Positions 7,010 to 22,077 of a DNA stretch of 32,596 bases are shown piece after piece (the first letter of the stretch is position 1; every line of letters starts with the position of its first letter). The position numbers and the translations under genes are program-made. The notes below the pieces were generated by a model. It was not told the origin of the DNA and did no database searches. It saw nothing but the letters and a program-made list of their open reading frames with translations. Source of the stretch: an uncultured Bacilli bacterium (GTDB lineage Bacteria > Bacillota_I > Bacilli_A > RF39 > UBA660); contig CALVSH010000005.1 in NCBI GenBank assembly GCA_944358945.1, forward strand, positions 1 to 32,596. Direction: 5' to 3'.

Positions 7010-9703
7010 ATGAAATATATGAGTCATGATGAGATTAGAAATACTTGGTTTCGTTTTTTTGAAAGCAAGGGACATAAGAAAGTAGAAAGTGCATCATTGA
7101 TACCAGTCAATGATAATAGTTTGTTATGGATTAATGCTGGTGTTGCGCCGTTAAAGAAATATTTTGATGGTAGTGAAGTACCTGATTGTAGAAGAATTGT
7201 TAATATTCAAAAATGTATTCGTACAAATGATATAGAAAATGTAGGTATTACGAAACGTCATCAAACTTTCTTTGAAATGATGGGAAACTTTTCTATTGGG
7301 GATTATTTTAAAGAGGAAGCGATATCTTTTGCTTATGAATTATTAACAGGAGAAGAATGGTTTGCTATTCCTAAAGAGAAGTTATATGTTACTGTTTATC
7401 CTGATGATACGGCTGCTTATCAAAAATGGATAGAAGTTGGACTTGATAAGGATCATATCGTTAAATTAGAAGAGAATTTCTGGGAGATTGGTGAAGGCCC
7501 TTGTGGACCAGATTCTGAGATTTTCTTTGATCGAGGAGAAAAGTATGATCCTAAGGGAGATGCTTTAGATAAATTTAAGAAAGATATTGATCAGGAACGT
7601 TATGTTGAAATTTGGAATAATGTTTTTAGTCAGTTTAATTCTAAAGAAGGCGTTCCAAGAGAAGAATATCAAGAACTTCCTAGTAAAAATATTGATACAG
7701 GAGCAGGACTTGAACGTTGGTGTATGGTTTTTCAAGATGTAGATAGTAACTTTGAGACAGATTTGTTTCAACCTATTATTAAACATATTGAACACTTAGT
7801 TGATTTTTCATATGATGGACAAAAAGAGTTTAAGATTATTGCTGATCATATTAGAGCTATTACTTTTGCTTTGGCAGATGGTGCTTTCTTTGATAATAAT
7901 GGTCGTGGTTATGTACTTCGTAGATTATTACGTCGTAGTGTACGTTTTGGAAGAAATTTAGGATTAAAAGGACCTTTTTTATATAAGTTAGTTTCTGATG
8001 TTGTTGAAGTTATGAAAGATGCTTATCCTTATTTAACTGATAACTGGGTTAAAGTTGAAACCTTAGTATTAGAAGAAGAAAAGCTATTCTTAAAGACCTT
8101 GGAAGCAGGAGAGCGACGTTTAAAAGAATTAGTAAAAGAATCTATGGATGGTACTATTAGTGGAGAAGATGCTTTTAAATTATATGATACTTATGGATTC
8201 CCTTTTGAACTTACAGAAGAATACTTAGCTGAACTTGGTTATAAAGTCAGTAAGGAAGAATTTGATAAATACATGAAGATTCAGAAAGAAATGGCTCGTA
8301 AAAGTTCTAAAAATAAGGCAGCAATGGCTAGTCAAAAGAAAGTGCTACTTGATTTTAAAGAAGAGAGTCAGTTTGTCTATGGTATTTATCGTTTAAAGAC
8401 TAATGTTTTAGCTATATTTTCTAAGGATAGTGTTGTAGATAGTATTGATCATGATTGTTATATTGCGTTGAAGAGAACTTGTTGCTATGCTGAGTCTGGA
8501 GGACAAGTTAGCGATACTGGTATGATTGTTGGGAAAAACTTTAAAGCACGACTACTAGATGTATTTAAAGCGCCTAATGGACAACATATTCATAAAGTTA
8601 AATTGTTAGATGGAGTTATTCATGCAGATGATGAGTGTGAAATTGTCTTAGATAAAGATCGTCGTAAGAGAACAGAATGTAATCACTCTAGTGTACATAT
8701 GTTACAATATGCTCTACAACAATGTGTTTCTAGTCAGATTAGACAGGCTGGTAGTTATGTAGATGGTGATAAACTTCGTTTTGACTTTACTTATGCCGGA
8801 AAACTTACAGATGATAAGATTATTGAAGTTGAAAATTTCGTTAATGATATGATCCATAAACATATTATTATTTCTACTGAGGTTATGCCAATTGATAAAG
8901 CTAAACAAATTGGGGCTATGGCGTTATTTAGTGAAAAATATGGAGATATTGTAAGAGTTGTTAAAATTGGTAAATCTATAGAGTTATGTGGTGGTACTCA
9001 TGCTGCAAATACTAGGGATATTTCCAAGTTTGCTATTTATTCTTATGAGTCTAAAGGAAGTAATTTGTATCGTATTGAAGCAACAACTGGTGAAAAAATC
9101 GAAAATATTTTATTTGATGTTATTAAACCTTATAATGATGAAATGATTAAGTTATTGATGAAAGCAAGAGAGATTTTGGATGAAGCTAAGGAAGTTGGTA
9201 TTCACTTAGACTTTGATGTTGAACTTAACCATGATAAGCCAGTCTCTTATAAAGATATTATCTTTAATCGTAATGAACTTCAATATGTTCAAAGTGAAGT
9301 TAGAGATTTAGAAAAGAAATATCATGATTTAAGAGAAAAACAAGTACTTTCCAATTTAAATATTTATCGTGAGAAAATTAAAGATTATAATGGTACTTTT
9401 GGATTATTGATGACTGTTGAAAATAAAGATATCAATTTATTAAAAGCAGTAGCTGATGCGATGATTGATGAAATGGGTACTGGTTTTGTATTCTTTGCTA
9501 ATGTAAAAGATGATGGTAGTGTTAATTTCTTAGCACGTAGTAGTTGTCATGTTAATAGTGGACTTATTGTAAAAGATGCTGCTATTAGTTCTTTAGGAAA
9601 TGGTGGTGGAAGTCCTACTTTCGCTCAAGGTGGAGGAAAGACCAAGGATAGTTTACCTAAGATTTATACGCATATTGAGAAAGTGTTAAAAAATGAAGCA
9701 TAA
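7010..9703 (+). CDS. alaS: Alanine--tRNA ligase
   Basis: Class II alanyl-tRNA synthetase of 897 residues, which charges tRNA-Ala in the cytosol and edits mischarged Ser/Gly. The N-terminal catalytic domain starts SHDEIRNTWFRFFESKGH and carries the FFEMMGNFSIGDYF region. The editing domain has the zinc-binding HSSVH (~559-563) and CGGTH (~660-664) motifs. The C-terminal C-Ala/DHHA1 domain ends with GGGSPTFAQGGG. The length is normal for bacterial AlaS. ATG 7010 (MKYMSHDE) is chosen as start; the upstream ATG 6992 in the same frame overlaps the end of the kinase gene and would add six residues. The GGAGAG at 6996-7001 fits 7010. holA overlaps its 3' end by 11 bases. The GCU T-box upstream supports the assignment independently. 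Confidence 0.97.
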   Translation: MKYMSHDEIRNTWFRFFESKGHKKVESASLIPVNDNSLLWINAGVAPLKKYFDGSEVPDCRRIVNIQKCIRTNDIENVGITKRHQTFFEMMGNFSIGDYFKEEAISFAYELLTGEEWFAIPKEKLYVTVYPDDTAAYQKWIEVGLDKDHIVKLEENFWEIGEGPCGPDSEIFFDRGEKYDPKGDALDKFKKDIDQERYVEIWNNVFSQFNSKEGVPREEYQELPSKNIDTGAGLERWCMVFQDVDSNFETDLFQPIIKHIEHLVDFSYDGQKEFKIIADHIRAITFALADGAFFDNNGRGYVLRRLLRRSVRFGRNLGLKGPFLYKLVSDVVEVMKDAYPYLTDNWVKVETLVLEEEKLFLKTLEAGERRLKELVKESMDGTISGEDAFKLYDTYGFPFELTEEYLAELGYKVSKEEFDKYMKIQKEMARKSSKNKAAMASQKKVLLDFKEESQFVYGIYRLKTNVLAIFSKDSVVDSIDHDCYIALKRTCCYAESGGQVSDTGMIVGKNFKARLLDVFKAPNGQHIHKVKLLDGVIHADDECEIVLDKDRRKRTECNHSSVHMLQYALQQCVSSQIRQAGSYVDGDKLRFDFTYAGKLTDDKIIEVENFVNDMIHKHIIISTEVMPIDKAKQIGAMALFSEKYGDIVRVVKIGKSIELCGGTHAANTRDISKFAIYSYESKGSNLYRIEATTGEKIENILFDVIKPYNDEMIKLLMKAREILDEAKEVGIHLDFDVELNHDKPVSYKDIIFNRNELQYVQSEVRDLEKKYHDLREKQVLSNLNIYREKIKDYNGTFGLLMTVENKDINLLKAVADAMIDEMGTGFVFFANVKDDGSVNFLARSSCHVNSGLIVKDAAISSLGNGGGSPTFAQGGGKTKDSLPKIYTHIEKVLKNEA

Positions 9704-10631
9704 TTATTTATTAGAAAGTAGTGATGAATACTTAATCTCTCTAAAGATTGATGAGATTATCAAGAAAGAGGGCTTTTCTTCAGCGGTTAAAAATGAATAT
9801 GACATGGAAGAAGTGGAGTTTTCTTCTGCTTTAGAGGATATTGATACTTATGGACTTTTTTCGGATAAAAAAGTAATTATTATTTCTCATATAGAGGCAT
9901 TACCTAGTAGTGAGCATGAAAAAGAAATCGATCATTTCTTTCAATATTTAAAAAATCCTTTAGATACTACGTTAGTGATTGTTACTGCTAGAAAGTTAAA
10001 TAATACTAAGAAGATGGTAAAACAGTTAAAGAAAGAATTAGAGTTTATACCACTTAGTATGAATGCTTTAGAGTTTGCTAAGAAGGAGTTAGATGGGTAT
10101 CGTCTAGAAAATGGAGTACTTAAAAAGTTAGTTAGTGACTGTTTAGAAGATATTGGTAGAATTCATCAAGAATGCGTAAAGTTAAAGATTTATCGTGAAG
10201 ATGAAAAAAGTATTTCTTTAGATGATGTTTCTTTGATGGTTGTCAAGAAATTAGGTGATTCTAGAGACTTAACATTTGAATTTGTTCGAGTACTTGCTTC
10301 TAAGGATAAGAAAAAAGCGTTAGAGATGTATCATGAGTTAGAAAAGTATTCGATTGAAGCTATTCCTTTGATAGGTTTACTTGCTAGTCAATTTTTGATT
10401 ATGTATCAAGTTAAGATTTTAGAGAAAAAGACTAGACTTAATCAAGAGATTGCGGATATTTTGGGAGAGAAACCTTATCGTATTCAAAAGACTAGGGAGT
10501 TAACAAGATATTATAGTGATAGTGAGTTACGTCATATTTTGAGAGAACTTGCGGATATGGATTTAAAAATAAAATCTACAGATGTAGATGGAAGTTTCTT
10601 AGTAGAGTTATTTATTTTAAAACATTGCTAA
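9693..10631 (+). CDS. holA: DNA polymerase III subunit delta
   Basis: The delta subunit of the clamp loader, which opens the sliding clamp during replication. The 312 residues start NYLLESSDEYLISLKIDEI, a typical HolA opening, and continue with a degenerate AAA+ fold: VIIISHIEAL at ~69, then LDTTLVIVTARKLNNTKKMVKQLKK. A helical lid and collar domain follows (DSRDLTFEFVRVLASKDKKKALEMY ... EAIPLIGLLASQF). As in other delta subunits there is no Walker A loop. It begins inside the last codons of alaS (11-base overlap), so it is likely coupled and partly under T-box control, an uncommon link between aminoacyl-tRNA supply and the replisome. A strong terminator follows at once. Confidence 0.88.
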   Translation: MKHNYLLESSDEYLISLKIDEIIKKEGFSSAVKNEYDMEEVEFSSALEDIDTYGLFSDKKVIIISHIEALPSSEHEKEIDHFFQYLKNPLDTTLVIVTARKLNNTKKMVKQLKKELEFIPLSMNALEFAKKELDGYRLENGVLKKLVSDCLEDIGRIHQECVKLKIYREDEKSISLDDVSLMVVKKLGDSRDLTFEFVRVLASKDKKKALEMYHELEKYSIEAIPLIGLLASQFLIMYQVKILEKKTRLNQEIADILGEKPYRIQKTRELTRYYSDSELRHILRELADMDLKIKSTDVDGSFLVELFILKHC

Positions 10632-10665
10632 AAAGACCAGGATTATTTTCCTTGGTCTTTTATTC
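10631..10665. terminator. Bidirectional terminator between holA and rarA
   Basis: AAAAGACCAGG (10631-10641) pairs with CCTTGGTCTTTT (10650-10661) with one bulged base, followed by ATT and T. The rarA stop codon (10643-10645) is in the loop. It serves both convergent genes. Confidence 0.82.
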
Positions 10666-11863
10666 TTTGTAATCGTTCATAGATTTCTTTTATGTTTTTT
10701 TCGTATCCAATGTCTTTTGGATGATAATACTTTTTATTTTTTAATTTATCAGGTAGATATTGTTGGATGATGTAGGCACCTTTATAGTCATGAGGATATT
10801 TATAGTCAGGAGAGTTTGTTTTTATATGAGAAGGGATACTTCCTACGTTTCCTTGTTCTATATCGTTTATAGCAGCATCAAAAGCGATGTGGGCGGTGTT
10901 ACTCTTTGGTGATAGTGCCATTTCGGTAACGATAGTTCCTAGAGGAATTCTAGCCTCTGGTAGACCGATTCTTTCGGCAGCGTTGATTGCGGCATCTAAT
11001 CTAGGTCCAATGGCAGGATTGGCTAGTCCAATATCTTCATAGGCTATTACGGATAGTCGTCGATAGATAGAGTCTAGGTCTCCTTCTACAGTTAGTCTGG
11101 CTAGATAATGTAGAGCGGCGTCTGGATCACTACCACGGATTGATTTTTGGAGACCACTTAAGACATCGTAATGACCTTCTCCGTTTTTATCTGAGAAAAA
11201 GACGGGTTTATTATTTATTTTTCTTATCTTTTCTTCGGTTATTGTTTTATCATCAGTAGAGTAGAAAGCAACCTCTAATAGATTATAGGCATATCTTAGG
11301 TCATTTCCAGATAGTTTTGCGATTAATTTGATACTTCTATTATCAATTTGAATTCCTTCTAAATCTGGGTGTTTTATGGCTTTATTTAGTCCTTCTATAA
11401 TATCTTCTGTTTCTAATTCTTTTAATTCAAATAATTGGCATCTACTTCTAATTGCAGGATTTATTGCATGATAAGGATTTGATGTTGTCATACCTATTAA
11501 AGTAATTAGACCACTTTCTAATTGAGGTAGTAAGATATCTTGTTTATCTTTATTAAGACGATGTATCTCATCCATAATTAGAATGATTCCATCATACATT
11601 TTTGCTTCTTCTATTACAATATCTAAGTCTTTCTTGGTGTTAATGGTGGCATTTAAAAAACGATATCTTAGATTTAAATCTTTTACAATAGCATTGGCAA
11701 TAGATGTTTTTCCTATTCCAGGTTTCCCATAAAGAATCATAGAAAATAATCTTTTGTTTTTTACTAAGTTTGTTAGTATTTTTCCTTCACCAAGAAGATG
11801 TTTTTGTCCAATTACTTCTGATAGGGTAGTATGAGCTAATTTAATTGCCAGTGGTTTATTCAT
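10643..11863 (-). CDS. rarA: Replication-associated recombination protein A (RarA/MgsA AAA+ ATPase)
   Basis: An AAA+ ATPase related to clamp loaders and to eukaryotic WRNIP1, acting at stalled replication forks. Counted from ATG 11863 it has 406 residues. It opens with PLAIKLAHTTLSEVIGQKHLLGEG, matching the RarA N-terminus. Walker A is GKPGIGKT (46-53), Walker B IILIMDEIHRLNK (~93-105), the sensor region GMTTSNPYHAINPAIRSRC. The conserved C-terminal half includes DPDAALHYLARL, YEDIGLANP and LPEARIPLGTIVTEMALSPKSN. ATG 11863 is preferred to 11875, because AAAGGATG sits 9-10 bases before it while it abuts the earlier ATG. It runs against the arm's gene direction. A promoter with an embedded LexA-like sequence lies upstream. 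Confidence 0.93.
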   Translation of the reverse strand: MNKPLAIKLAHTTLSEVIGQKHLLGEGKILTNLVKNKRLFSMILYGKPGIGKTSIANAIVKDLNLRYRFLNATINTKKDLDIVIEEAKMYDGIILIMDEIHRLNKDKQDILLPQLESGLITLIGMTTSNPYHAINPAIRSRCQLFELKELETEDIIEGLNKAIKHPDLEGIQIDNRSIKLIAKLSGNDLRYAYNLLEVAFYSTDDKTITEEKIRKINNKPVFFSDKNGEGHYDVLSGLQKSIRGSDPDAALHYLARLTVEGDLDSIYRRLSVIAYEDIGLANPAIGPRLDAAINAAERIGLPEARIPLGTIVTEMALSPKSNTAHIAFDAAINDIEQGNVGSIPSHIKTNSPDYKYPHDYKGAYIIQQYLPDKLKNKKYYHPKDIGYEKNIKEIYERLQRIKDQGK

Positions 11864-11913
11864 GAATTCTTTCATCCTTTCATTAGTTTATTACAAATAT
11901 AATGTTTTAATTT

Positions 11914-11942
11914 ATTATATCAAATAATTGTTCGTTTTTAAA
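11914..11942 (-). promoter_or_regulatory. rarA promoter with LexA-like operator in the spacer
   Basis: On the minus strand: -35 TTTAAA (11937-11942), 17-base spacer, -10 TATAAT (11914-11919). The spacer holds CGAAC-AATT-ATTTG (11921-11934). Its left half is the perfect Bacillus LexA half-site CGAAC and the right half matches GTTCG at three of five bases. The same ACGAACAATT stands in the same position in the promoter of the Y-family gene (28169-28182). Confidence 0.5.
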
Positions 11943-11971
11943 GATGTTTCCTTTCTGGAGTTATGATTTAT

Positions 11972-12001
11972 TTGTTTTTATGAAAAATAATGTGGTAGAA
12001 T
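11972..12001 (+). promoter_or_regulatory. Probable xerD promoter
   Basis: TTGTTT (11972-11977), an 18-base spacer and TAGAAT (11996-12001), preceded by TGG as an extended -10. The ribosome binding site AGGTGGTGAT follows and ATG is at 12037. The match is moderate. Confidence 0.4.
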
Positions 12002-12036
12002 TAATATAGATAAAGAAAGATATAGGTGGTGATGGT

Positions 12037-12951
12037 ATGAATATTCATGATGCGATTGTTGATTTTTTACAATATTGTTTATTTGAAAAAGGACTTACGG
12101 ATAAAACTATCGAGTCTTATAAGAATGATTTAGGTATTTATCAAGATTTTTTACAACAAAGAGGAGTTAGTTGTGTGGATAAAATTACTAGTGATGATAT
12201 TAAGGAACTTTTAAAAAGTCGTGGTAGTTTAGAAAGTGGAAGTACGGTTGCGCATAATTTGACAGTTGTTAAGAATTTTCATAAGTATTTGATTAAGGAA
12301 AATATTGTTAGTAGTGATCCTTCTTTATTTATTGCTAGACCTAAGTTACAGAAAAAGTTACCTAAGTGTTTATCGGTTGAGGAAGTAGATTTGCTTTTGG
12401 ATATTCCCTTGGTTACGGCATTTGACTATCGTAATAAAGCTATGTTAGAATTAATTTATGGTGCAGGACTTAGGGTGAGTGAGTTAGTGAGTCTTACCAT
12501 GAATCAAATTGATTTAGAAAATGGTTTGATTCGTATCATGGGAAAAGGTAGAAAAGAAAGAGAAATTCCTATTGGTGAGTATGGAATTTATTATTTGCAA
12601 TTGTACCTAGAACATCGAGGAGAGCTTTTAAAAAAGCAGAGTCAAGTAGGTAGTTTGTTTTTAAATAATCATGGAAAGCAAATTACTAGACAAGGCTTTT
12701 TTAAGATGTTAAAAGGTTTACTTACTTCTAAGGGATTAAATCCTGATATTTCTCCTCATACTTTACGTCATAGTTTCGCAACTCATTTATTGAGTCATGG
12801 AGCTGATTTAAGAAGTATTCAGGAGATGTTAGGACATTCTGATATTTCTACTACTAAAATTTATACCCAGGTAAGTGATGAGAAAGTTGCGAGCGATTAT
12901 AAGAAATATCACCCTAGGGAACATAAAGGAGATAAGGAAAATGAGATTTAA
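12037..12951 (+). CDS. xerD: Tyrosine recombinase XerD/XerC
   Basis: A 304-residue site-specific recombinase for chromosome dimer resolution at dif. The N-terminal SAM-like core-binding domain covers ~1-90. All catalytic residues are present: Arg146 (GAGLRVSEL), Lys170 (MGKGRKER), His241 and Arg244 (HTLRHSF), His267 (LGHSDI) and nucleophile Tyr276 (TKIYTQV). I call it XerD rather than XerC from the following gene, deoB, which follows xerD in Bacillus. Only one Xer gene is in this window. It lies 2.9 kb from the dif site, unusually close for a XerCD-type system. deoB starts inside its last codons (11-base overlap). Confidence 0.9.
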   Translation: MNIHDAIVDFLQYCLFEKGLTDKTIESYKNDLGIYQDFLQQRGVSCVDKITSDDIKELLKSRGSLESGSTVAHNLTVVKNFHKYLIKENIVSSDPSLFIARPKLQKKLPKCLSVEEVDLLLDIPLVTAFDYRNKAMLELIYGAGLRVSELVSLTMNQIDLENGLIRIMGKGRKEREIPIGEYGIYYLQLYLEHRGELLKKQSQVGSLFLNNHGKQITRQGFFKMLKGLLTSKGLNPDISPHTLRHSFATHLLSHGADLRSIQEMLGHSDISTTKIYTQVSDEKVASDYKKYHPREHKGDKENEI

Positions 12952-14107
12952 ACGTATATTTTTAATGGTATTGGATTCGTTAGGTGTTGGTGAAGCGATA
13001 GATGCGATTAATTATGGTGATACCGGGGCTAACACCCTGGGACATATTAAGGAAAAATATGATTTGTTTATTCCTAATTTAGCTAAAATTGGTTTTTTAG
13101 ATACGATTAATATGAATGATAATCCTAAAGTGGAAGCGTATTATACGATTGCGAAACCCAATAATGCTGGTAAAGATAGTTTAAATGGTCATTATGAGAT
13201 GATGGGGATTGAAAATCATATTCCATTTAAGACATTTAATCAAGGGTTTACTTTTGATATTTTAAGTGGAATTGAAGAAGTAACGAGTCGCAGGGTTATT
13301 GGTAATAAGTGTTGTCAAGACGCTTCTATTATTCAAGAGTTAGGTGAACGTCAACAGAATTATGGGGCTCTTATTATTTATACTTCTGCAGATTCTGATT
13401 TACAGGTTGCTGCTCATGAAGATTGCATTCCTATTTCAACTTTATATGAGTATTGTGAGAGAATTCGTGCGTTGACACTTCGTGATGAATGGCGTGTTGG
13501 AAGAGTTATTGCGAGACCTTTTACTGGTACACCTGGTCATTATCGTTTTATTCATAGTGCTAGAAGAGATTATTCTGTTAAGCCACCAGAGAAAAGTGTT
13601 TTAGACAGTTTAGTGGAAGCTAAATATAATGTTATTGGCATTGGTAAAATTAATGATATATTTGATGGACAAGGTATTAATAAACAAATGAAAGCTAATA
13701 ATAATATGGAAGCTATCAATAAGTTTACGGATATTATAGATAAAAATTTTACTGGACTTTGCATGGTTAATTTAGCTGATTTTGATAGTATGTAGGGTCA
13801 TACTAGAGATGTTGAGGGTTATGGAAAGGCAATTGAAGAGTTAGATGTTGAAATCCCGATTATATTAAATAAATTGGATACTGGTGATTTATTGATTATT
13901 ACGGCTGATCATGGAAATGATCCTACTTTTCCAGGAACTGATCATACTAGAGAAAATGTGCCTGTCATTATGTATAGTAGAGATTTCGTAGAACCTAAGA
14001 GATTAGAAGCATTTGATACTTTTGCAGATATCGGTGCAACGATTGCGGATAATTTTAATGTTGATATGCCACCAATTGGGGTTAGTGTTTTAGATGAACT
14101 TGAGTAA
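12941..14107 (+). pseudogene. deoB: Phosphopentomutase, interrupted by one in-frame TAG
   Basis: DeoB interconverts ribose/deoxyribose 1- and 5-phosphates in nucleoside salvage. The frame runs from ATG 12941 to TAA 14105-14107 (388 codons, normal length) but codon 285 (13793-13795) is TAG. The family has LYGH there, so one base change from a Tyr codon explains it. The stop falls between metal ligand Asp282 and ligand His287; the ligands in TADHGNDP and DHTRE are downstream, so a truncated product should be inactive. Everything else is intact on both sides: VLDSLG, GKDSLNGHYEMMG, TADHGND, TFADIGATI. The phosphoacceptor Thr of GKDT is Ser80 here. It overlaps xerD and the next gene, so translation of the far end seems to matter. 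It may be a recent nonsense mutation, a read-through stop or a base error. Confidence 0.85.
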
Positions 14108-15095
14108 GATTAAAATTGGTGATGTTTATGTGTTAGATTCTTCTAATCCTCATTCTTATTCTATTGATGTTGATGATAGTTCTTTTTGGAGTACGACTCA
14201 GGAATACCTTAGTGAAAACAGTCATATTCCTTTTGTGCATGAGAAGTATGTTGATTATTGGAATAAGGGAATTCCTATTGTTCATGTTGTAGGTCAAGTT
14301 AGAAAACGTGGACGTTCTATTACGACGTTATCTAAGAAGAATGTTACTGTCTTTTTACCTAGAAATGTCTCTTTTGATAATGCAAGATGTTTGATGGAAT
14401 GTTTAAATGAGATAGAAAATGATACAAAAGGCGAAGAAATTGTTCTGAATGAGAAATTGGTTTATATAACGGATAAGAAAAATTTTGGATATGATTATGA
14501 GAGATTTCCTCCTATGAATTCTGTATCTGTTGATTTTACTTTTAGAGAGGCTGTTTCTTTATTTATTCGTGATGGATTTGGTCAACTTAGTGAAGATGAG
14601 AGAAAGATGTTTTATAAGTTTCGTAACTTTAATCTTTCTGATATGCTTATTGATGATAGTTTTAATCGTTATCCTATTCATCATGATGGAAGTGGCGTAT
14701 TATTTATAAATAGAGAAGGGGAGAGATATTGTTCTCCTGTAAAGAAATATAGTCATTTAGAAGAGTTAAATTATTTGTTTTCTTGTATGTTAAATGAGGA
14801 TATTTCTTCTAATTGTGATAATATCACGGAAATGGTTAATAAGTATTCTTCTGTTTTAATGTTGTTTAGGGAAGGGGAGGTATATTCTTATATTCCGGAG
14901 GACATTTCTAAAAAACAATATGATGAATGCTTAAAGCTTAATGATGAAATGTTCCAATGTAATCCTTATCTTTTTATTTCTTCTGCAAGAGTTTGTTCTG
15001 ATTTTAGTATTACGAATGAGGAACTTTCTTTTAAAGATAACATTTTACTTTCCTTTCAAAATAATCAAGAAAAAAGTAGGGGAAGAAGTATATAA
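14094..15095 (+). CDS. Hypothetical protein
   Basis: A 333-residue protein that I do not recognise. It has no signal peptide or membrane helix, so it is probably cytosolic. The N-terminal ~120 residues look like a beta-rich unit (IKIGDVYVLDSSN, IVHVVGQVRKRGRSITTL, VTVFLPRNVSFDN); the rest is mixed and acidic. Met1 lies inside the 3' end of deoB (14-base overlap, ATGAACTTGAGTAA), which suggests translational coupling and expression with xerD-deoB. There is no clear ribosome binding site of its own, which fits coupling. Base composition matches its neighbours. A terminator follows immediately, so it ends the operon. Confidence 0.75.
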   Translation: MNLSKIKIGDVYVLDSSNPHSYSIDVDDSSFWSTTQEYLSENSHIPFVHEKYVDYWNKGIPIVHVVGQVRKRGRSITTLSKKNVTVFLPRNVSFDNARCLMECLNEIENDTKGEEIVLNEKLVYITDKKNFGYDYERFPPMNSVSVDFTFREAVSLFIRDGFGQLSEDERKMFYKFRNFNLSDMLIDDSFNRYPIHHDGSGVLFINREGERYCSPVKKYSHLEELNYLFSCMLNEDISSNCDNITEMVNKYSSVLMLFREGEVYSYIPEDISKKQYDECLKLNDEMFQCNPYLFISSARVCSDFSITNEELSFKDNILLSFQNNQEKSRGRSI

Positions 15096-15127
15096 AAAAT
15101 ACCTAAATTTGTTAGGTATTTTCTTTT
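15096..15127 (+). terminator. Terminator of the xerD-deoB operon
   Basis: AAAATACCTAA (15096-15106) pairs with TTAGGTATTTT (15112-15122) around a 5-base loop, followed by CTTTTT. It starts at the stop codon of the preceding gene. Confidence 0.82.
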
Positions 15128-15135
15128 TACTCCCC

Positions 15136-15300
15136 CTACTTTGCTTTTTTAAAACTTTGGCAGATGGTTTCTTCTGTTTTTTTACAGCAGTCTCCATCAC
15201 AAGTAGAACTTATTTTTACTTCGTTTAATTCACAGCAACCATTATCACAATTATTATGTTTACAAGTTGCGACATCACATTTAATTGTTCCTTTGTTCAT
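15136..15300 (-). CDS. DUF1540 Cys-rich small protein
   Basis: A 54-residue protein read from ATG 15300 to TAG 15136-15138. Nine cysteines (8, 13, 18, 22, 23, 34, 38, 39, 47) follow the DUF1540 pattern: IKCDVATCKHN at the start and TICQSF at the end. DUF1540 proteins are small presumed metal-binding proteins common in Clostridia and Bacilli; the function is unknown. A near-perfect AAGGAGGT lies 6-7 bases before the ATG, and a TATAAT (ATTATA at 15316-15321) just upstream. It is convergent with the xerD-deoB operon and is the last gene before dif. Confidence 0.82.
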   Translation of the reverse strand: MNKGTIKCDVATCKHNNCDNGCCELNEVKISSTCDGDCCKKTEETICQSFKKAK

Positions 15301-15364
15301 GTTTTACCTCCTTATATTATAGTATTTACAGTAAGGAAGTTTTTATGTAATAAAATACATCTCT

Positions 15365-15547
15365 TTATTTTAATCGAGCTTGGGAGTTCAACGTAGAAGT
15401 TTTTTTCGATTAATTTTAGAATTGTCTTAAATTAAATTGGGTTGGGTAATTGTTCATCTTTTTTACTCTCGATTGATTCTAGAGAAGTTCTCTATTTTAA
15501 ATCGAGGTGGATAATTACCCATCTTTTTTATTCTCGATTCATTTTAT
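15365..15547. repeat. Three degenerate ~64-base tandem units with AATCGAG/CTCGATT ends
   Basis: Three units start near 15370, 15434 and 15499. Units 2 and 3 align well: GGGTAATTGTTCATC (15444-15458) with GGATAATTACCCATC (15509-15523), both followed by TTTTTT, then ACTCTCGATTGATT or ATTCTCGATTCATT. Unit 1 has AATCGAG and TCGATT at matching places but a diverged middle. AATCGAG (15372-15378, 15500-15506) and CTCGATT (15468-15474, 15533-15539) form inverted pairs. In unit 3 TGGATAATTACCCA is a near-perfect palindrome. No coding potential is convincing here. Its role is unknown; protein-binding sites or short terminators are possible. Confidence 0.5.
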
Positions 15548-15568
15548 CACACTTCCCCTATTTTAATT

Positions 15569-15581
15569 TTATCAATAGAAG
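15569..15581 (+). repeat. Direct repeat, copy 1 (upstream of dif)
   Basis: TTATCAATAGAAG is identical to 15918-15930. The preceding ~18 bases are also similar (both start ACTTC and run through a T-rich stretch). The two copies bracket a ~340-base AT-rich segment that contains dif. Confidence 0.6.
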
Positions 15582-15875
15582 AGGGGACTTGTCCTTATAC
15601 GTAGAAGATGGAGATATAGATATTAATGTATTATGATAATGTATATTATATAGTAAGTAAGAATATTATTGATAATAAAAAAATATGTATATTACAATAC
15701 ATATATATAATGATTTAATTTTGTTAAATTAAAAGTTAATTTATATTTATTTATTGATTAATTGATAATAATTTATTTGGTTTATGATAATGAAAAGATA
15801 AGGTGTTATTGAAGTATTATCTATAAAATATAGGAAATTTGTATATATATCTTATAGTTTTTCTTTATATATCCA

Positions 15876-15903
15876 ACTTCCTATAATTGATATTATGTTA
15901 ACT
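15876..15903 (+). other. dif: dif site (chromosome dimer resolution, replication terminus)
   Basis: A 28-base site with an 11-base XerC-side arm ACTTCCTATAA, 6-base centre TTGATA and 11-base XerD-side arm TTATGTTAACT. Against the Bacillus subtilis dif as I recall it, each arm differs at one position (G to T, A to T); the XerD arm also matches E. coli dif at 10 of 11. It lies in a gene-free, very AT-rich stretch. Most genes on both sides are transcribed toward it, as expected where replication forks meet, and a XerD gene is 2.9 kb away. Confidence 0.92.
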
Positions 15904-15917
15904 TCTTATTTTTTAAC

Positions 15918-15930
15918 TTATCAATAGAAG
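15918..15930 (+). repeat. Direct repeat, copy 2 (just after dif)
   Basis: TTATCAATAGAAG, identical to 15569-15581; it begins 15 bases after the dif XerD arm. Confidence 0.6.
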
Positions 15931-15947
15931 GATACTACACTAAATTA

Positions 15948-16214
15948 TTATATTGCTTTTCTTCTAGTTTTTCTTTTTTCTTTCTTAGGTGCATTAAATA
16001 TATATTCTTGATGTTCTATATATGCTGTGTCATTATATGTTTTTTCTTTTTTAAATATATTAAATTTATCTTCTTGATTTATAGTTGCATTATCATTATT
16101 TGTTTCATAATTATTATTTTCATATATATAACAACCATTTAAAGATCCTAAAACAACTGTTGCGGATACCATAAATGTTTTTTTGGCTTTATTTGTTAAT
16201 TTAAAATTTTTCAT
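15948..16214 (-). CDS. Small putative lipoprotein
   Basis: An 88-residue protein that I do not recognise. The head is basic (KNFKLTNKAKK), then a hydrophobic stretch (~14-27) ends in SLNGC, a possible lipobox with the lipidated Cys at 28. The rest is polar, Asn-rich, and ends in a very basic tail (KKEKRKTRRK). The ribosome binding site AGAGGA is well placed. It is the last gene of the three-gene operon next to dif, 43 bases after the DUF2726 gene, and ends 45 bases from dif. The lipobox is short of ideal, so a single-pass membrane protein is the alternative. Confidence 0.6.
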   Translation of the reverse strand: MKNFKLTNKAKKTFMVSATVVLGSLNGCYIYENNNYETNNDNATINQEDKFNIFKKEKTYNDTAYIEHQEYIFNAPKKEKRKTRRKAI

Positions 16215-16257
16215 TGTTTATTCCTCTTCTCTTTCGATAATAGAACAACTCTAAAAT

Positions 16258-16854
16258 CTACATTTGATTGTTTATATTATTATTTATTACTTGTTGTGAA
16301 TTGTTGTTAGTATTGGAAATATTGTTATTTATTTCTGTTAATATTCGATTAACTACGTATTGTTGTTCATTTGGATATTTTGTATAAAATGTAATGATTG
16401 GAATATTTGCTGATTTACATATTTCATGAACTTTGTAGTCACGTTTTTTTCTATTTGATTGATTATGAGTTTCATCGTTTAGTTCAATTAATAGTAATAT
16501 ATTGGATAAATCATTGGTAAATATTCCAAAATCAATATTTCTAAATAGCTCTGTACGATAGTGATGTTTATTATCATCTGTTGTTTTATCGATGATTGCA
16601 CTTAAGTTTATTTGTGGTATTACTTTATATTGAGGCTCTATTAAGCGCAATTTGTTATAAAATAATTGTTCTGATTGTGTCATTAAATTTCTTTTTGTAT
16701 ATACTTTATTGTTTATATCAGTGGTAGATGGTTCTTCTTTTTTATTATTTAGAAGTATTGTTACTGCTTTTGATAAGAATATTAATATTAAACCTAATAA
16801 ATAATTGTCCCATATTACTCCTCTACTCTCTTTTTTTAGCTTTTCATTTTTCAT
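16258..16854 (-). CDS. Membrane-anchored DUF2726 (restriction-endonuclease-like) protein
   Basis: A 198-residue protein. A membrane helix at ~18-36 (NYLLGLILIFLSKAVTILL) is followed by the DUF2726 domain from ~57: LMTQSEQLFYNKL, VIPQINLSAII, RNIDFGIFTN, LLLIELNDETHN, RDYKVHEICKSANIPIITF. DUF2726 belongs to the PD-(D/E)xK nuclease-like fold. Its acidic residues map to the Asp of IDFGI and the Glu of IELND, where IELDD is usual. The C-terminal ~25 residues are Asn/Gln-rich and look disordered. Catalytic activity is unproven. It is the middle gene of the operon, 22 bases after the HTH gene, without a clear ribosome binding site. Confidence 0.78.
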   Translation of the reverse strand: MKNEKLKKESRGVIWDNYLLGLILIFLSKAVTILLNNKKEEPSTTDINNKVYTKRNLMTQSEQLFYNKLRLIEPQYKVIPQINLSAIIDKTTDDNKHHYRTELFRNIDFGIFTNDLSNILLLIELNDETHNQSNRKKRDYKVHEICKSANIPIITFYTKYPNEQQYVVNRILTEINNNISNTNNNSQQVINNNINNQM

Positions 16855-16876
16855 TAAAGAAAAATAGATTTAATCA

Positions 16877-17644
16877 TTATACTTTTCTTGATTGAATCTC
16901 TGCAATTTTTTCAAATACTTCTTTTGCGTTATCTTCGTTGATTTCTGTATATCCTAACTCTGCTAGTGCTTGAACTTTTGCAGAATTTAATTCTTGAGTT
17001 CTTGATAATTTTTCTTCTTTTTTATGTTCTATGTCTTGTACGAAACGTTTGTGTGTTTCACTTATTTTGTTTTTAGAAGCACCACCGTTATTGTATAAAG
17101 TCATAGCGCTAAACATGATACTTTCAAAGATAAATTGTTTGTCGTTATTAAAAGTAAATTCCATTGGATCTGTAAAACCTAAAGACTTTGACATATAGGC
17201 TAACATGTATTTTAATTCTTCTGTTGATTCCATTGATTGTAAGAAATGATGTAGGTATATATATGTATTATAAGTATCTTTTGTTTTATCTGTTGCTAGT
17301 TTTTCTTTTAATAATGTAATAATATCAGATAATAATTCTTGTTCTTTTTTATTAAATCCTTTTAAGTCAGCAATTACTTCTTTGTTAGAAGAATCTTTTA
17401 CTCCTTCTTTTAATCTATTTTCAACATCGATGATGTATTCTCCATTTATTTTTAGATCTTTTAATTGATTCATACTTTCTATATTTAATAAACTTAGTAA
17501 TTTAGCAGCTTTTTCTTTTGGCCAATCATTTAAATTTTCGATTGCTAGATAGTTATATAACATTTGTCTAGATACACCTAAGTACTTTGCTAATCTCACC
17601 TTGCTAATTCCTAGTTCTGTTAATACTACGTTTAATTCTTTCAT
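16877..17644 (-). CDS. HTH-domain regulator of the dif-adjacent operon
   Basis: A 255-residue protein with an N-terminal XRE-like helix-turn-helix: ISKVRLAKYLGVSRQMLYNYL (13-33 region). The rest is helical, charged and unfamiliar (LKGFNKKEQELLSDIITLLKEK at ~94-115; a conserved-looking EFTFNNDKQFIFESIMFSAM near 160-180). The C-terminus AEIQSRKV may form a short coiled coil. I infer a DNA-binding regulator with an unknown sensing or dimerisation domain. It has AGGAGGG before the ATG and a consensus promoter whose flanks carry repeated ATGTGTC sequences, which suggests autoregulation. It leads an operon with the DUF2726 and lipoprotein genes. Confidence 0.7.
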   Translation of the reverse strand: MKELNVVLTELGISKVRLAKYLGVSRQMLYNYLAIENLNDWPKEKAAKLLSLLNIESMNQLKDLKINGEYIIDVENRLKEGVKDSSNKEVIADLKGFNKKEQELLSDIITLLKEKLATDKTKDTYNTYIYLHHFLQSMESTEELKYMLAYMSKSLGFTDPMEFTFNNDKQFIFESIMFSAMTLYNNGGASKNKISETHKRFVQDIEHKKEEKLSRTQELNSAKVQALAELGYTEINEDNAKEVFEKIAEIQSRKV

Positions 17645-17663
17645 TTTTTACCCTCCTAATATA

Positions 17664-17692
17664 ATTATAGACACATCGATGAGAATAATCAA
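17664..17692 (-). promoter_or_regulatory. Strong promoter of the HTH-DUF2726 operon
   Basis: On the minus strand: -35 TTGATT (17687-17692), 17-base spacer, -10 TATAAT (17664-17669). The heptamer ATGTGTC occurs twice around it, within the spacer next to the -10 and again upstream of the -35. GTGTC-AATTT-ACAC forms an inverted repeat upstream of the -35. These fit operators for the HTH protein. Confidence 0.72.
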
Positions 17693-17724
17693 GTGTAAAT
17701 TGACACATTTTTAAAATGTCTAAT

Positions 17725-18759
17725 TTACTTATCTATTGTGGCTCCTCCTAGACATATTGATTTATCATTATAAAATACAATAAATTGTCCGGGAGTGATG
17801 GCTCTTATTTTGTTTTTAAAAGTAACTTTTAATTCTTTATTATTTTCTTCTATTGTTTCTACTTCCTCTAGATTACCTCTAGAACGTATCTTGGCATATA
17901 GAGGGCGTTTGTTTAGTTCTTCTTTATCTACTAAATAGTTCATGTTACTAGCGATTAATTCCTGTTTCATTAAGTCTTCATTTGTTCCGACTATTAGGTT
18001 GTTGTTCTTGGTATCTAGTTGTAGTACATATAATGGTTCTTTATAGGATATATTTAGGCCTTTTCTTTGTCCGATAGTATATTTATATAGTCCTGTGTGT
18101 TTACCTAAAATTTTGCCGTTTTTTAGTACGATATTACCAGGTTTATCTGTTTGTCCATTTTTTTGTAGGAAAGTTTTGTAGTCATCATTTGGTATAAAAC
18201 AAATTTCCTGGGAATCTTTCTTTTCACTAACTGGTAAGTTATATTTTCTAGCAAGTGCGCGGATTTCTTCTTTTGATTGGTATTTATTTAGTGGGAAGAT
18301 AATATGTGGTAGAACTTCTTTTTCTATTTGATTTAGAAAATAGGATTGATCTTTTCCTGTTGCCTCACTCATTACTAGTTTATTATCTATTATTTTTGCG
18401 TAGTGTCCTGTTGCGATATAGTCGGCATTTAATTCTTTGGCTTTTTGATAGAATAGACCAAATTTAAAGATGCGATTACATAGAATACAAGGATTAGGTG
18501 TTTTACCGTTTTTATAAGAATTCATAAAATTATCTATTATTTCTTGCTTGAATTCTTTTCTTAAGTCGAATACATAGTGTTTGATATTTAATTGGTTACA
18601 AATTTCTTTTGCGTCTTCTATCATTTTTTCGGTTTCTTCGTTATTTAATAACTGCATAGTTGCCCCTATTACTTCATAACCTTCTTCTTTTAATAGGCAG
18701 GCACTAACAGAAGAGTCTACTCCCCCACTCATTCCAATTATTACTTTCTTTTTTGTCAT
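17725..18759 (-). CDS. mnmA: tRNA-specific 2-thiouridylase MnmA
   Basis: Adds sulfur to U34 of tRNA-Lys, -Glu and -Gln in the cytosol, using a persulfide from a sulfur relay. It has 344 residues, slightly shorter than the usual 355-370. The PP-loop ATP-binding motif SGGVDSS is at 11-17. The catalytic Cys pair is Cys91 (NPCILCNRIFKFG) and Cys187 (SQEICFIPND). GHYAKI, GKDQSYFL and the C-terminal beta-barrel (TIGQRKGLNISYKEPLYVL, ITPGQFIVFY) are intact. The start ATG 18759 has GGTGAT ahead. It is followed by the divergently regulated HTH operon in the same direction, without a strong terminator between. Confidence 0.95.
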   Translation of the reverse strand: MTKKKVIIGMSGGVDSSVSACLLKEEGYEVIGATMQLLNNEETEKMIEDAKEICNQLNIKHYVFDLRKEFKQEIIDNFMNSYKNGKTPNPCILCNRIFKFGLFYQKAKELNADYIATGHYAKIIDNKLVMSEATGKDQSYFLNQIEKEVLPHIIFPLNKYQSKEEIRALARKYNLPVSEKKDSQEICFIPNDDYKTFLQKNGQTDKPGNIVLKNGKILGKHTGLYKYTIGQRKGLNISYKEPLYVLQLDTKNNNLIVGTNEDLMKQELIASNMNYLVDKEELNKRPLYAKIRSRGNLEEVETIEENNKELKVTFKNKIRAITPGQFIVFYNDKSICLGGATIDK

Positions 18760-18794
18760 GTTATCACCAGTTTTTATTATATCTTACTTTTTCA

Positions 18795-18823
18795 AAAGAA
18801 AAAAGATATCTTTTCATATCTTT
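18795..18823 (-). terminator. Terminator after spoIIM
   Basis: ATATCTTT (18816-18823) and AAAGATAT (18802-18809) pair, and on the minus strand a T-rich tract follows. The hairpin begins right at the spoIIM stop. Confidence 0.7.
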
Positions 18824-19419
18824 TAGAGAAGTTGTAGTAGTTTTGTGATACCAAATGTTTCTATTAGTGATATTATGATGGAAAATATAATAAAAGTGAT
18901 ACCAATTTTTCCATATCTTTTTACATATGGTGACCAAGTTATCATTTTCTTTTTAAATAAATTTTGATAGATGGCTAAGGAAAAAGAAATAGCATAATAG
19001 ATTAGTAATAGATAGCCAAGGACATTTAAGAAGTTAGGGAGAGAATAAATTATTGCACTTAGAATGCCTTTAATACCGTAGGTTAAAAAGATACTTGTTA
19101 AGGAAAAGCCTGCTAAGAATCCTTTAAAAAATAGAATTATTAGTAAAAAAGGAATACCAATGAATGATAGACCTAATATCCAGATAATGATAGTTACTAG
19201 GAGATTATTCGTTATACTTGTTATAAGTCCTGATAGATAGTTTATGTTATCTTTGTTTATGGCATCCATAAAATCTGTGATATTTGTCTTTATTAGAGTT
19301 TTATTACTGTCTGATAGAATAGCTGGAAATAGTATTCCTAATAGAATAGATACTGCTGTTATTATTGTTAGTAAAAGTAGTAGTTTGTTTTGACGAAGTT
19401 CTTGTATTATTTTTTTCAT
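18823..19419 (-). CDS. spoIIM: Stage II sporulation protein M
   Basis: A 198-residue polytopic membrane protein. In spore formers SpoIIM works with SpoIID and SpoIIP in septal peptidoglycan thinning and engulfment. Hydrophobic segments lie at ~13-34, 74-104, 107-125, 127-150 and 172-190, giving about five helices. The family pattern is seen in a central NNLLVTIIIWILGLSFIGIPFLLIILFFKG block followed by GFSLTSIFLTYGIKGI. The length is normal. AAAGGAG lies in good position before the ATG. With spoIVB nearby it suggests the lineage makes, or recently made, endospores; both genes look intact. Confidence 0.85.
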   Translation of the reverse strand: MKKIIQELRQNKLLLLLTIITAVSILLGILFPAILSDSNKTLIKTNITDFMDAINKDNINYLSGLITSITNNLLVTIIIWILGLSFIGIPFLLIILFFKGFLAGFSLTSIFLTYGIKGILSAIIYSLPNFLNVLGYLLLIYYAISFSLAIYQNLFKKKMITWSPYVKRYGKIGITFIIFSIIISLIETFGITKLLQLL

Positions 19420-19475
19420 ATGTTCTCCTTTGTACTACTTTATTCACTGTTTCCTTTATCTATGAAAAAAAGAAA

Positions 19476-19504
19476 TTTACTTTTTTAGACAATTGTTTTA
19501 TAAT
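19476..19504 (+). promoter_or_regulatory. Promoter of the 28-residue membrane peptide
   Basis: TTTACT (19476-19481), 17-base spacer, TATAAT (19499-19504). The start site near 19511 leaves a leader of about 14 bases carrying AGGTGG. Confidence 0.62.
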
Positions 19505-19524
19505 GGGTAATGAGGTGGTACTTG

Positions 19525-19611
19525 ATGAATGATAAAGTAGTAAAAGTTGTCGCTATTATCCTAGTTGCGGTAATGGTTATATCGTTTTTGAGTGTTTTAC
19601 TCTATATATAA
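19525..19611 (+). CDS. Single-helix membrane peptide, Prli42-like
   Basis: A 28-residue open frame from ATG 19525 to TAA 19609-19611. A short charged head (MNDKVVK) is followed by one hydrophobic helix (VVAIILVAVMVISFLSVLLYI). The layout resembles stressosome anchor Prli42 and similar miniproteins of Firmicutes, but the sequence is too short for a firm call. A consensus promoter, AGGTGG ribosome binding site and terminator frame it exactly, so I take it as a real gene. It is on + among minus-strand genes. Confidence 0.6.
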   Translation: MNDKVVKVVAIILVAVMVISFLSVLLYI

Positions 19612-19612
19612 G

Positions 19613-19645
19613 AAAAAGGCATCCTTAGTGATGTCTTTTATTTTT
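19613..19645. terminator. Bidirectional terminator after the membrane peptide gene
   Basis: AAAGGCATC (19615-19623) pairs with GATGTCTTT (19630-19638, one G-U), followed by TATTTTT. The convergent minus-strand gene ends at 19638 inside it. Confidence 0.75.
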
Positions 19646-19940
19646 CTATATATCCTTCTAGTTCGGCTTCAATATTTTGAACGATTCCGTCAGGTATATT
19701 GTATTTATTTACGATGTCATTGATTCTTTTTGTGTCTTTTGCTAGGTATAATAGTAGTATTCCTGCGATACGATTGGCAGTATATTGATCTAGTAGTTTT
19801 CTATCACTTGGTTTGATGTGATATTTTCTAGTGATATCTAGGATTGGTCCATATCCATATAGATAATTTGTTAATGATTTTGAAATGTTTTCTACGTCTT
19901 TATTTTTGTCCGTTAATCTTACTTTTGTCCATATTTTCAT
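19638..19940 (-). CDS. Small hypothetical protein
   Basis: A 100-residue protein that I do not recognise. It looks all-helical and soluble, with no signal or membrane segment: ENISKSLTNYLYGYGPILDITRKY, SDRKLLDQYTANRIAGILLLYLAKD, then an amphipathic C-terminal helix GIVQNIEAELEGYIEK. A good AAGGGGATG site precedes ATG 19940. It sits between spoIVB and the 28-residue peptide gene, with about 65 bases to spoIVB. Confidence 0.7.
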   Translation of the reverse strand: MKIWTKVRLTDKNKDVENISKSLTNYLYGYGPILDITRKYHIKPSDRKLLDQYTANRIAGILLLYLAKDTKRINDIVNKYNIPDGIVQNIEAELEGYIEK

Positions 19941-19984
19941 AACTTCATCCCCTTGGCTATATATTTTAACACAAAGAGGTTTAA

Positions 19985-20007
19985 AAATAAAGAGACAGTT
20001 GTCTCTT
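19985..20007 (-). terminator. Terminator after spoIVB
   Basis: AAGAGACA (19990-19997) and TGTCTCTT (20000-20007) pair; on the minus strand TATTTTT follows. The spoIVB stop codon is in the stem. Confidence 0.82.
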
Positions 20008-21001
20008 ATCCTTTATCTCCTTCTTCTAACATAGTTGTGATGAATATTCCATATCCTTTTTTTGTATCATTTACAATTACATAGTTTACGGCACCTATTA
20101 TTTTATTATTCTGAAGAATGGGAGAACCACTCATTCCCTGGACAACGCCTCCTGTTTTTTCTAAGAGTTTGGAATCTGTTATTTCAAAGAGGATATTCTT
20201 GGTTTCACTTTTTTTATCTATTCCTATGATATTAATAGTAAATTCTTCTACTTGGTTACTGTCAATTACAGTTTTTATGGTTGCTTGTCCTAATTTAATA
20301 TCATTAGCAGTTCCTACTTCCATTGTTTCTAGATTAGCTGCATCTATTTCTTCTTTGTAGGTACCATAGATTCCAGTGATATCGTTATTATCAATTTCAC
20401 CGGCGGTAGTGGATTTGTCATAGGTTGCATTTTTTTCTCCGGCTGCCCCATCCCTACTCTTTTCGATATTGGATACGGATGCATTAAAGATTTTTCCATC
20501 TTTAATTTCAAATTTTTGAGCTGTTGTTGATTCGATGATTTCGTGTCCTAAGGCTCCGAATCGTTTTGTTTCTGGATCAATATAGGTTAATGTTCCAATT
20601 CCGTTTATTTGATCTTTTACGTAGAGACCTGTTTTTAAAACGGCATTGGTGTCTTCTTTTAATGTTAGGGATACTTTTTTTTCTTCTTTACCTCTTAGTA
20701 TTGTAAATTCTATTTTTTTATTTTGACTATTATTTAGAGCTTCTACCATTTCCGAGATAGATGTTACTTCTGTTTTTTCAATTTTTGTAATTTTATCTCC
20801 TACTTCAAAGCCAGCATCTTTTGCGATGTATGCATTATCTACTTCATAGAAACCTACAACTAAGACACCTTTGGAATTTACTTCTATTCCTATTGTTTCT
20901 CCACTTGCGATTACGTAATTTGAATAAGCATAGATATTTATGGGAATAATAGTGATAAGAAGGATTGCAATTGTTAGTAGTAATTTATTTTTAAATTTCA
21001 A
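20006..21001 (-). CDS. spoIVB: SpoIVB peptidase (S55 family)
   Basis: A 331-residue secreted serine protease that in Bacillus signals from the forespore to activate the pro-sigma-K protease. An N-terminal signal anchor is at ~5-25. A PDZ domain follows (~45-120: GVLVVGFYEVDNAYIAKDAGFEVGDKI). The S55 peptidase domain has catalytic His153 in FGALGHEI and the nucleophile in GMSGSPI (residues 289-295). SNIEKSRDGAAGEKNA is also typical. The length is shorter than B. subtilis SpoIVB (~425), mainly in the N-terminal half. The start is TTG 21001 behind AGAGGTGA. The main processing target, spoIVFB, is not in the window. Confidence 0.92.
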   Translation of the reverse strand: MKFKNKLLLTIAILLITIIPINIYAYSNYVIASGETIGIEVNSKGVLVVGFYEVDNAYIAKDAGFEVGDKITKIEKTEVTSISEMVEALNNSQNKKIEFTILRGKEEKKVSLTLKEDTNAVLKTGLYVKDQINGIGTLTYIDPETKRFGALGHEIIESTTAQKFEIKDGKIFNASVSNIEKSRDGAAGEKNATYDKSTTAGEIDNNDITGIYGTYKEEIDAANLETMEVGTANDIKLGQATIKTVIDSNQVEEFTINIIGIDKKSETKNILFEITDSKLLEKTGGVVQGMSGSPILQNNKIIGAVNYVIVNDTKKGYGIFITTMLEEGDKG

Positions 21002-21102
21002 AAATATTCACCTCTTTTCTTTACTACAGTATTAGTTTTTCTAAATTAATTTTTATTATGTTAAATAGTTTTTACCATTTACACTAAAATTTTACATTTT
21101 TT

Positions 21103-21131
21103 TTGACTTTTATATTTTATTTGTTTATATT
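21103..21131 (+). promoter_or_regulatory. Promoter of the 21152-22077 gene pair
   Basis: TTGACT (21103-21108), 17-base spacer, TATATT (21126-21131). A ribosome binding site AGAGGTGAG follows, then ATG 21152. Confidence 0.6.
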
Positions 21132-21151
21132 TATAATAGAGGTGAGATGAT

Positions 21152-21856
21152 ATGAATAATAATGGTGGTATACCTAATTTTGTACATAATAAGGATATTG
21201 ATTGGGACGCTGTGAGAAGAGCATCTCAGGGGAAAACTATTCATGCTAAACATGGAAAACTAAATCTTAAAAAAGTTGCGATAACTGGAATTGTCTTATC
21301 GGTTTTAGGTACTGCAGGTTACTATTTAGGTAAGAGTGTTTATGATAGACATACAGAATCTAAAATTATCGATGAGGCAACTGAAGTAGTAAATGATCTT
21401 ATTACCGATTATACCATACGTACTGCTGATAATAATGGTTTTTATTTAAATGATCAAGCTATTGGAAATAAGTTAAAAGATTTGCTTACAACTGGGGAAA
21501 TTGATGAGGTTACTGCTGCTTATGCTGTTAGTACGCGTTTAGATGATGCTTATGAAAAAGATGAAATGAACAATATTTTTGAAAGAGCATTGGGAGTAGA
21601 TGCTGATACCTGGGCTCGTGAGCATGGTTATAGTGGCATTGATGATCCGGATTTTACTAAGGAAGCAGAAATGCAAATTTTACGTAATTATGAAGTAGAA
21701 AATTATAAAAAAGAAGAAACTGATGATTATGTTGTAGAGACAACTCGTGTTGATAATCCAGAAGAACAACAAAGTGATGAATTAAATACTATGTTTGTAG
21801 ATGATAATACAAATGCAAATGTTAATGATAATGCGAAAGGTATGGTTGGTAGATAA
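21152..21856 (+). CDS. Hypothetical membrane-anchored protein
   Basis: A 234-residue protein that I do not recognise. Residues ~1-43 are polar and basic (IHAKHGKLNLKK). A single membrane helix is at ~46-63 (VAITGIVLSVLGTAGYYLG), then a helical, acidic outer or cytosolic domain (~70-185). The C-terminal tail is Asn/Asp-rich and likely disordered. The lack of a signal-peptide-like head suggests a type II single-pass protein. It has its own promoter on + against the arm's direction, and its stop overlaps the next start (TAATG), so the two genes form a pair. Confidence 0.72.
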   Translation: MNNNGGIPNFVHNKDIDWDAVRRASQGKTIHAKHGKLNLKKVAITGIVLSVLGTAGYYLGKSVYDRHTESKIIDEATEVVNDLITDYTIRTADNNGFYLNDQAIGNKLKDLLTTGEIDEVTAAYAVSTRLDDAYEKDEMNNIFERALGVDADTWAREHGYSGIDDPDFTKEAEMQILRNYEVENYKKEETDDYVVETTRVDNPEEQQSDELNTMFVDDNTNANVNDNAKGMVGR

Positions 21857-22077
21857 TGCAAGAAATTGATGTTTATTCATGGGATGATAATAACTATATT
21901 TTATTTTCTAAGATAGGTAGATATTTGTATTTATCTAATGAAAAAAATCCTAGAGATATTATGATTCGTAAAGAAGATAGTAATGACCCTGATTTATTAT
22001 TACCACTGGATGATGATAATGAATTTAATAAAGCATTAGAATTATTTTATAATAATGCTAAGGTTGATGAAATTTAA
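21856..22077 (+). CDS. Small acidic hypothetical protein
   Basis: A 73-residue acidic protein with no recognisable family. It opens with IDVYSWDDNNYILFSKIGRYLYLSN, which suggests a small beta sheet, and ends in a helical acidic tail. It starts with the ATG that overlaps the upstream stop by one base (TAATG), so expression depends on coupling. A terminator directly follows. Confidence 0.65.
   Translation: MQEIDVYSWDDNNYILFSKIGRYLYLSNEKNPRDIMIRKEDSNDPDLLLPLDDDNEFNKALELFYNNAKVDEI

Follow-up and report, generated by a model that had tools for sequence, protein, structure and literature searches.

In established XerCD biology, FtsK or SpoIIIE unites the sister copies of the dif site, the gamma domain of FtsK activates XerD, and XerC and XerD exchange strands. 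Bacterial main chromosomes are taken to replicate bidirectionally, and the inversion of strand skew is routinely used to locate their origin and terminus. A survey found xerC usually nearer to dif and xerD near the origin (PMC3025954), and the proteobacterial dif was described as having 'no apparent specific genetic environment' (PMC2731167). The recombinase gene lies close to the terminus site in the XerS/difSL system of streptococci and the XerH/difH system of epsilonproteobacteria (PMC5357621). Unidirectional replication was established experimentally for the Pseudoalteromonas chromids, which are secondary chromosomes with ter2 near ori2 (PMC7858055). About 250 chromosomes whose arms are strongly unequal appear in SkewDB, which describes such data as hard to explain (PMC8941118).

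We analysed a window of 32,596 nucleotides, which is the entire contig C5 of the assembly of an uncultured Bacilli bacterium, together with genomes of its family and class, all of them draft metagenome assemblies. The dif locus of the window has much in common with the canonical XerCD/dif of B. subtilis and E. coli, i.e. a 28-bp site of layout 11+6+11, separate XerC and XerD, an FtsK with a gamma domain, and a single copy of the site at the gene-polarity terminus. It differs in its centre TTGATA, in an orientation that flips in place, and in having xerD only 1-6 kb from dif in most of the families concerned. A recombinase gene near its site is shared with XerS/difSL and XerH/difH, but those are single-recombinase modules, with a difSL of 31 bp, whereas here there are two recombinases and a 28-bp site.

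The dif site and its recombinases

The 28-mer ACTTCCTATAATTGATATTATGTTAACT occurs exactly at 15876..15903 (+) in the window. This unique match consists of a XerC-side arm (15876-15886, +), the central region TTGATA (15887-15892, +) and a XerD-side arm (15893-15903, +), and both its position and its sequence are kept in relatives. The column information content of 93 aligned sites indicates that a TCT extension past the XerD-side arm (15904..15906, +) is conserved in the family and that an A is preferred at 15875, just ahead of the XerC arm. The initial annotation had placed a near-canonical dif here with one difference per arm, and this holds: the site differs by one base in each arm from the B. 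subtilis dif. Shuffled windows gave no match to dif at ≤3 mismatches. A single dif had been named as a check, and we found one copy in the whole assembly (1,296,425 bases in 102 contigs), which is 69% complete so that a second copy could have been missed; most relatives also carry one good copy per genome.

Dozens of genera have the same sequence at the orthologous position, and hence the dif of the window is no chance match. The phage-like integrases elsewhere in the genome and the flipping of the site in place would also suit an integration remnant of some Xer-using element rather than a chromosomal dif. We give this origin almost no weight, as the site is single-copy with neither a duplicated half-site nor an element adjoining it, and its orthologues across those genera have fixed neighbours.

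The tyrosine recombinase gene at 12037..12951 (+) is xerD, as its product scores 325 bits against TIGR02225 and 293 against TIGR02224, and the R/K/HxxR/H/Y catalytic motifs are readable in its translation. It ends 2.9 kb from dif, the distance given in the initial annotation. The genome encodes four integrase-family genes: this xerD, a second Xer gene on contig C55 and two phage-like genes. The second Xer gene, which had been suggested as a further check, has TIGR02224 as its best model and is thus XerC. Both proteins score slightly below the equivalog cut-offs and above the PRK00283 subfamily cut-off. An FtsK-gamma domain is encoded on contig C93 (PF09397, E=1.9e-32). Separate XerD and XerC genes along with FtsK-gamma therefore make this a two-recombinase system, in agreement with the type first assigned to the dif. 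We rejected a single-recombinase XerS/difSL or XerH/difH module, since there are two Xer genes and the XerS model gives 112 bits against a cut-off of 267. The other two integrase-family genes (G000:C37:8836-9369 and C78:805-1290) probably belong to mobile elements.

Two Xer genes are found in nearly all of the 117 family genomes, and 84 of these have a site with arms at ≤3 mismatches. Three members (G094, G062 and G076) have neither an XerD match at the threshold used nor a dif at ≤3 mismatches, possibly through joint loss of XerD and dif or through incomplete assemblies.

It is nearly certain, in our judgement, that the dif is genuine and that the arrangement around it is conserved, and dif and its partners are confirmed, with a mechanism that would be conventional. 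FtsK/SpoIIIE would bring the sister copies together at dif, FtsK-gamma would activate XerD there, and the two recombinases would exchange strands across TTGATA. We consider 15876-15903 quite likely to be the XerC/XerD dimer-resolution site of the main chromosome, a role deduced from the parts present in the sequence.

Gene neighbourhood of dif

Linkage of dif to xerD is widespread, and the view in the initial annotation that a xerD beside dif is uncommon was not upheld: the arrangement is kept family-wide and in eight more families of the class. All 58 family genomes that have both on one contig place dif downstream of xerD, at a median distance of 2.2 kb and a maximum of 29.6 kb, distances that this requirement biases towards short values in fragmented assemblies. 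Any near-terminus gene co-directional with replication is expected to have dif downstream, but not at so close a spacing. Outside the family, xerD is ≤10 kb from dif in 37/50 co-contig genomes of the class, and the families with close linkage are f3, f5, f8, f10, f13, f14, f16 and f21. The distance elsewhere in the class is 51-79 kb (f12 and f22), 111 kb (f17) or 172-236 kb (f11). Assembly fragmentation shifts these counts, too, towards short distances, but near and far patterns both occur among complete single-contig genomes.

The order of the flanks, alaS-holA-rarA-xerD-deoB > dif < orf255-mnmA-spoIIM, is largely conserved in 80 named relatives, the nearest of which are uncultured Bacilli including Candidatus Faecimonas. 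Within the family the linkage may thus reflect plain slow change of gene order, as the flanking genes are syntenic too. An ordinary bidirectional chromosome with xerD kept near dif as synteny by descent, devoid of functional meaning, would agree with this, since alaS, holA and rarA likewise stay beside xerD within the family. Descent explains less outside it, where of 26 window proteins tested only xerD and deoB remain near dif (6/6 sampled loci of other families), so that the xerD-dif linkage outlives general synteny. The xerD-deoB-dif linkage is older than the family, and orf255 was added within it. The dif lies where the two arms of gene polarity meet, and the order around it, xerD-deoB > dif < orf255, is inherited.

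The phosphopentomutase gene deoB (12875..13795, +; PRK05362, 316 bits) adjoins xerD. Its frame has an in-frame TAG at 13793-13795, about three quarters through, while the frames of relatives run uninterrupted for 388-410 aa; the TAG is either a real nonsense mutation or an assembly error. Between deoB and dif lies orf333 (14094..15095, +), which has no Pfam or NCBIfam match and is found only in the closest relatives of the window. On the other side dif is adjoined by the small orf88 (15948..16214, -), for which no homologue was found. Both orf333 and orf88 fall within a fast-changing strip around dif. They are followed by orf198 (16258..16854, -), a DUF2726 protein (PF10881, E=1.8e-17), and orf255. 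Farther out are an mnmA-like gene (17725..18759, -), named by reading its translation and by synteny, spoIIM (18823..19419, -; TIGR02831, E=4e-23, below the curated cut-off) and spoIVB (20006..21001, -; TIGR02860, 305 bits). At 203-3724 the window encodes a repeat-rich surface protein of 1173 aa, which by eye has prealbumin/Cna-B-like repeats and a C-terminal membrane segment.

The first widely conserved gene beyond dif, on the side opposite xerD, is orf255 (16877..17644, -), which encodes a family-restricted protein of 255 aa with an N-terminal HTH. Of the family genomes sampled 36/38 carry it, against 0 of 258 genomes from the rest of the class. No protein of the window is more conserved than its product, which has a median identity of 82% in far relatives, compared with 81% for RarA, 72% for AlaS and 66% for XerD. 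The distance from orf255 to dif has a median of 647 bp over 57 loci; in another 24 genomes the median is 143 bp, and 12 of these place the gene ≤50 bp from dif. This linkage served to predict the location of missing dif sites. Four of seven family genomes without a match at ≤3 mismatches have a diverged dif-like site between xerD and orf255. The protein has weak HTH matches in Pfam and PHROGs, no match in NCBIfam and no PDB relative by sequence. The best E-value in Foldseek is 0.9, with HTH domains as the small matches, and the structure model (mean pLDDT 66) is confident only in the HTH part and the C-terminal end. Our guess is that orf255 encodes a terminus-associated DNA-binding protein. 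Another conserved protein, Fic-like by eye, is encoded 0.3-1.2 kb beyond dif in four of the six outgroup loci (L179-L182), across dif from xerD and at the place of orf255.

Among the 80 named relatives dif points either way while the flanking genes stay fixed. The fewest changes of orientation are six, five of which are forced by starred branches of a five-protein tree of 63 genomes. The window has the minority orientation, common to all of its 12-genome clade. We found no conserved flanks able to explain the inversion beyond the A before and the TCT after the 28-mer. Which way the 28-bp site points is immaterial to its retention, because the site flips repeatedly while its neighbours stay. 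A coupling of the orientation to the G+T-rich strand looked promising in G117 versus G118, but there were only four supported independent pairs, and these gave no consistent direction.

Gene polarity and neutral skew around dif

Gene direction flips around dif as first described, being mostly + to the left and mostly - to the right, and the bulk GC skew of the window goes from about +0.3 to about 0 across the site. Gene polarity and bulk skew both switch at dif on a 509-kb contig of G117 and a 518-kb contig of G118, where the two arms are unequal in bulk skew. The B. subtilis SRS motif GAGAAGGG proved too rare to mark polarity. The bulk GC skew alone is misleading here, because a coding-strand bias that switches with gene direction is mixed with a uniform component.

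The uniform component appears at fourfold-degenerate third positions. On the coding strand these have a GC skew of +0.40 and an AT skew of -0.41 in the left arm, and -0.69 and +0.40, respectively, in the right arm. Since the signs are opposite in the two arms, the + strand is G+T-rich on both sides of dif. Across 203..31792 all 28 scored genes have positive values (+0.25 to +0.64), on either strand and on either side of dif, with no inversion at the site. The skew extremum expected at dif is hence present in the bulk skew and absent from the neutral skew. Likewise, the replication terminus placed there stands as a switch of gene polarity, but the mutational record does not show forks meeting at this place.

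Neutral skew in the other genomes was computed on sampled stretches. It has one sign in 20/20 stretches over 487 kb of the G117 contig. The relative orientation of the G118 contigs C2 and C3 is not inferable from polarity, and each was therefore read alone, with G119 in addition: one sign runs along the dif contig of G118 and one along its dnaA contig. In G119, dnaA (at 160 kb) and dif (at 860 kb) share an 894-kb contig, and there one sign holds in 20/20 stretches over 880 kb, across both. The sign is the same on both sides of dif at 36/49 family loci, and the remaining loci are mostly near zero on at least one side. G099 shows the normal inversion at dif, and G013 a mixed pattern. The neutral skew reverses sharply at dif in L039 (around 13764) and L046 (around 12806), and in both the right flank with orf255, mnmA and spoIIM is missing beyond dif, consistent with a recent inversion that broke next to the site.

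In the frame of xerD the neutral sign at dif differs among species. In 20/20 genomes, whichever the sign at dif, G and T are in excess on the dnaA-sense strand to either side of dnaA, and so this is the G+T-rich strand. In all 20 genomes dnaA is at the gene-polarity origin, and the 14 loci examined have DnaA boxes to its left and right. We did not find dnaA in the window's own assembly, and the window shows the dif side of the pattern only; the contigs of its genome are mostly of the two types expected of two arms.

The outgroup families are without this pattern: in five single-contig genomes of other families the neutral keto skew is within 0.1 of zero, and the neutral GC skew inverts at dif in three of them. 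As a control, E. coli K-12 near dif has no uniform component, and its third-position bias follows the gene strand. The absence of a neutral inversion is very probably a real pattern. The SkewDB chromosomes with asymmetric skew are similar in having a bulk GC skew strong in one arm and weak in the other, but here the skew is resolved to neutral sites, its sign never inverts, and it is tied to the dnaA-sense strand in 20/20 genomes. Given the unequal arms in SkewDB, the phenomenon may be wider than the family.

Replication direction and terminus organisation

A G+T excess usually marks the strand that runs co-polar with the fork, owing to cytosine deamination on the lagging template. One-directional replication is the simplest reading of the uniform neutral skew and fits it best, as such replication from oriC would leave one sign round the circle, anchored to the orientation of dnaA. 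Most replication, or most of the replication that causes mutations, would run one way, in the direction from dnaA to dnaN, and would pass through dif. The lack of neutral inversion that unidirectional replication implies was found at both origin and terminus in relatives, and on the dif side in the window. We put the probability of this reading at roughly 0.4, and no higher mainly because of the near-complete gene polarity in both arms, which one-way forks would not maintain. The family exceptions G099 and G013 also count against it. We found no report of one-directional replication of a main chromosome in the open-access literature searched.

The Pseudoalteromonas chromids are similar in having a strand skew without a two-arm inversion. 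In those replicons the terminus and dif are near the origin, whereas here the replicon is that of dnaA-oriC, dif is roughly opposite dnaA (700 kb away in the 1.5-Mb genome G119), genes keep a two-arm polarity, and the mode of replication is read from the skew.

An ordinary bidirectional chromosome, on which the neutral skew has a non-replicative cause, for example non-random segregation of parental strands or strand-specific damage anchored to oriC, is plausible as well, though short of an even chance. The gene polarity is textbook bidirectional in every genome, and the DnaA boxes to either side of dnaA resemble those of a bipartite oriC. To our knowledge, however, no non-replicative process marks one whole chromosome strand so strongly.

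Unequal bidirectional forks could also have moved their meeting point far from dif, leaving the gene polarity as a record of the old terminus. The contigs of opposite type in G013 sum to just about 290 kb out of 1 Mb, which would suit a switch located past dif, and the neutral GC skew of G119 falls towards zero or below left of dnaA, although its AT skew does not. We consider this unlikely: a moved terminus alone is insufficient because the bias keeps its sign across dnaA too, with positive values on its two flanks in 20/20 genomes, and G119 stays positive for 160 kb left of dnaA.

The neutral skew is unexpected and strong, and the dif arrangement is conserved and not a singularity. Dozens of related genomes separate two records, as gene polarity inverts at oriC and dif and the neutral bias at neither, and one can now ask what sets the strand bias, i.e. 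replication direction, segregation or damage. We tentatively suggest, with clearly less than even confidence, that this family of gut Bacilli may have a primary chromosome replicated essentially one way from oriC, in the direction from dnaA to dnaN, through dif and on round to the origin, with a dif opposite the origin, a two-arm gene polarity that is a fossil or otherwise selected, and orf255 perhaps being part of how the terminus works. The xerD-deoB-dif linkage, the flips of dif in place and the family-specific HTH protein offer handles on how the terminus is organised.
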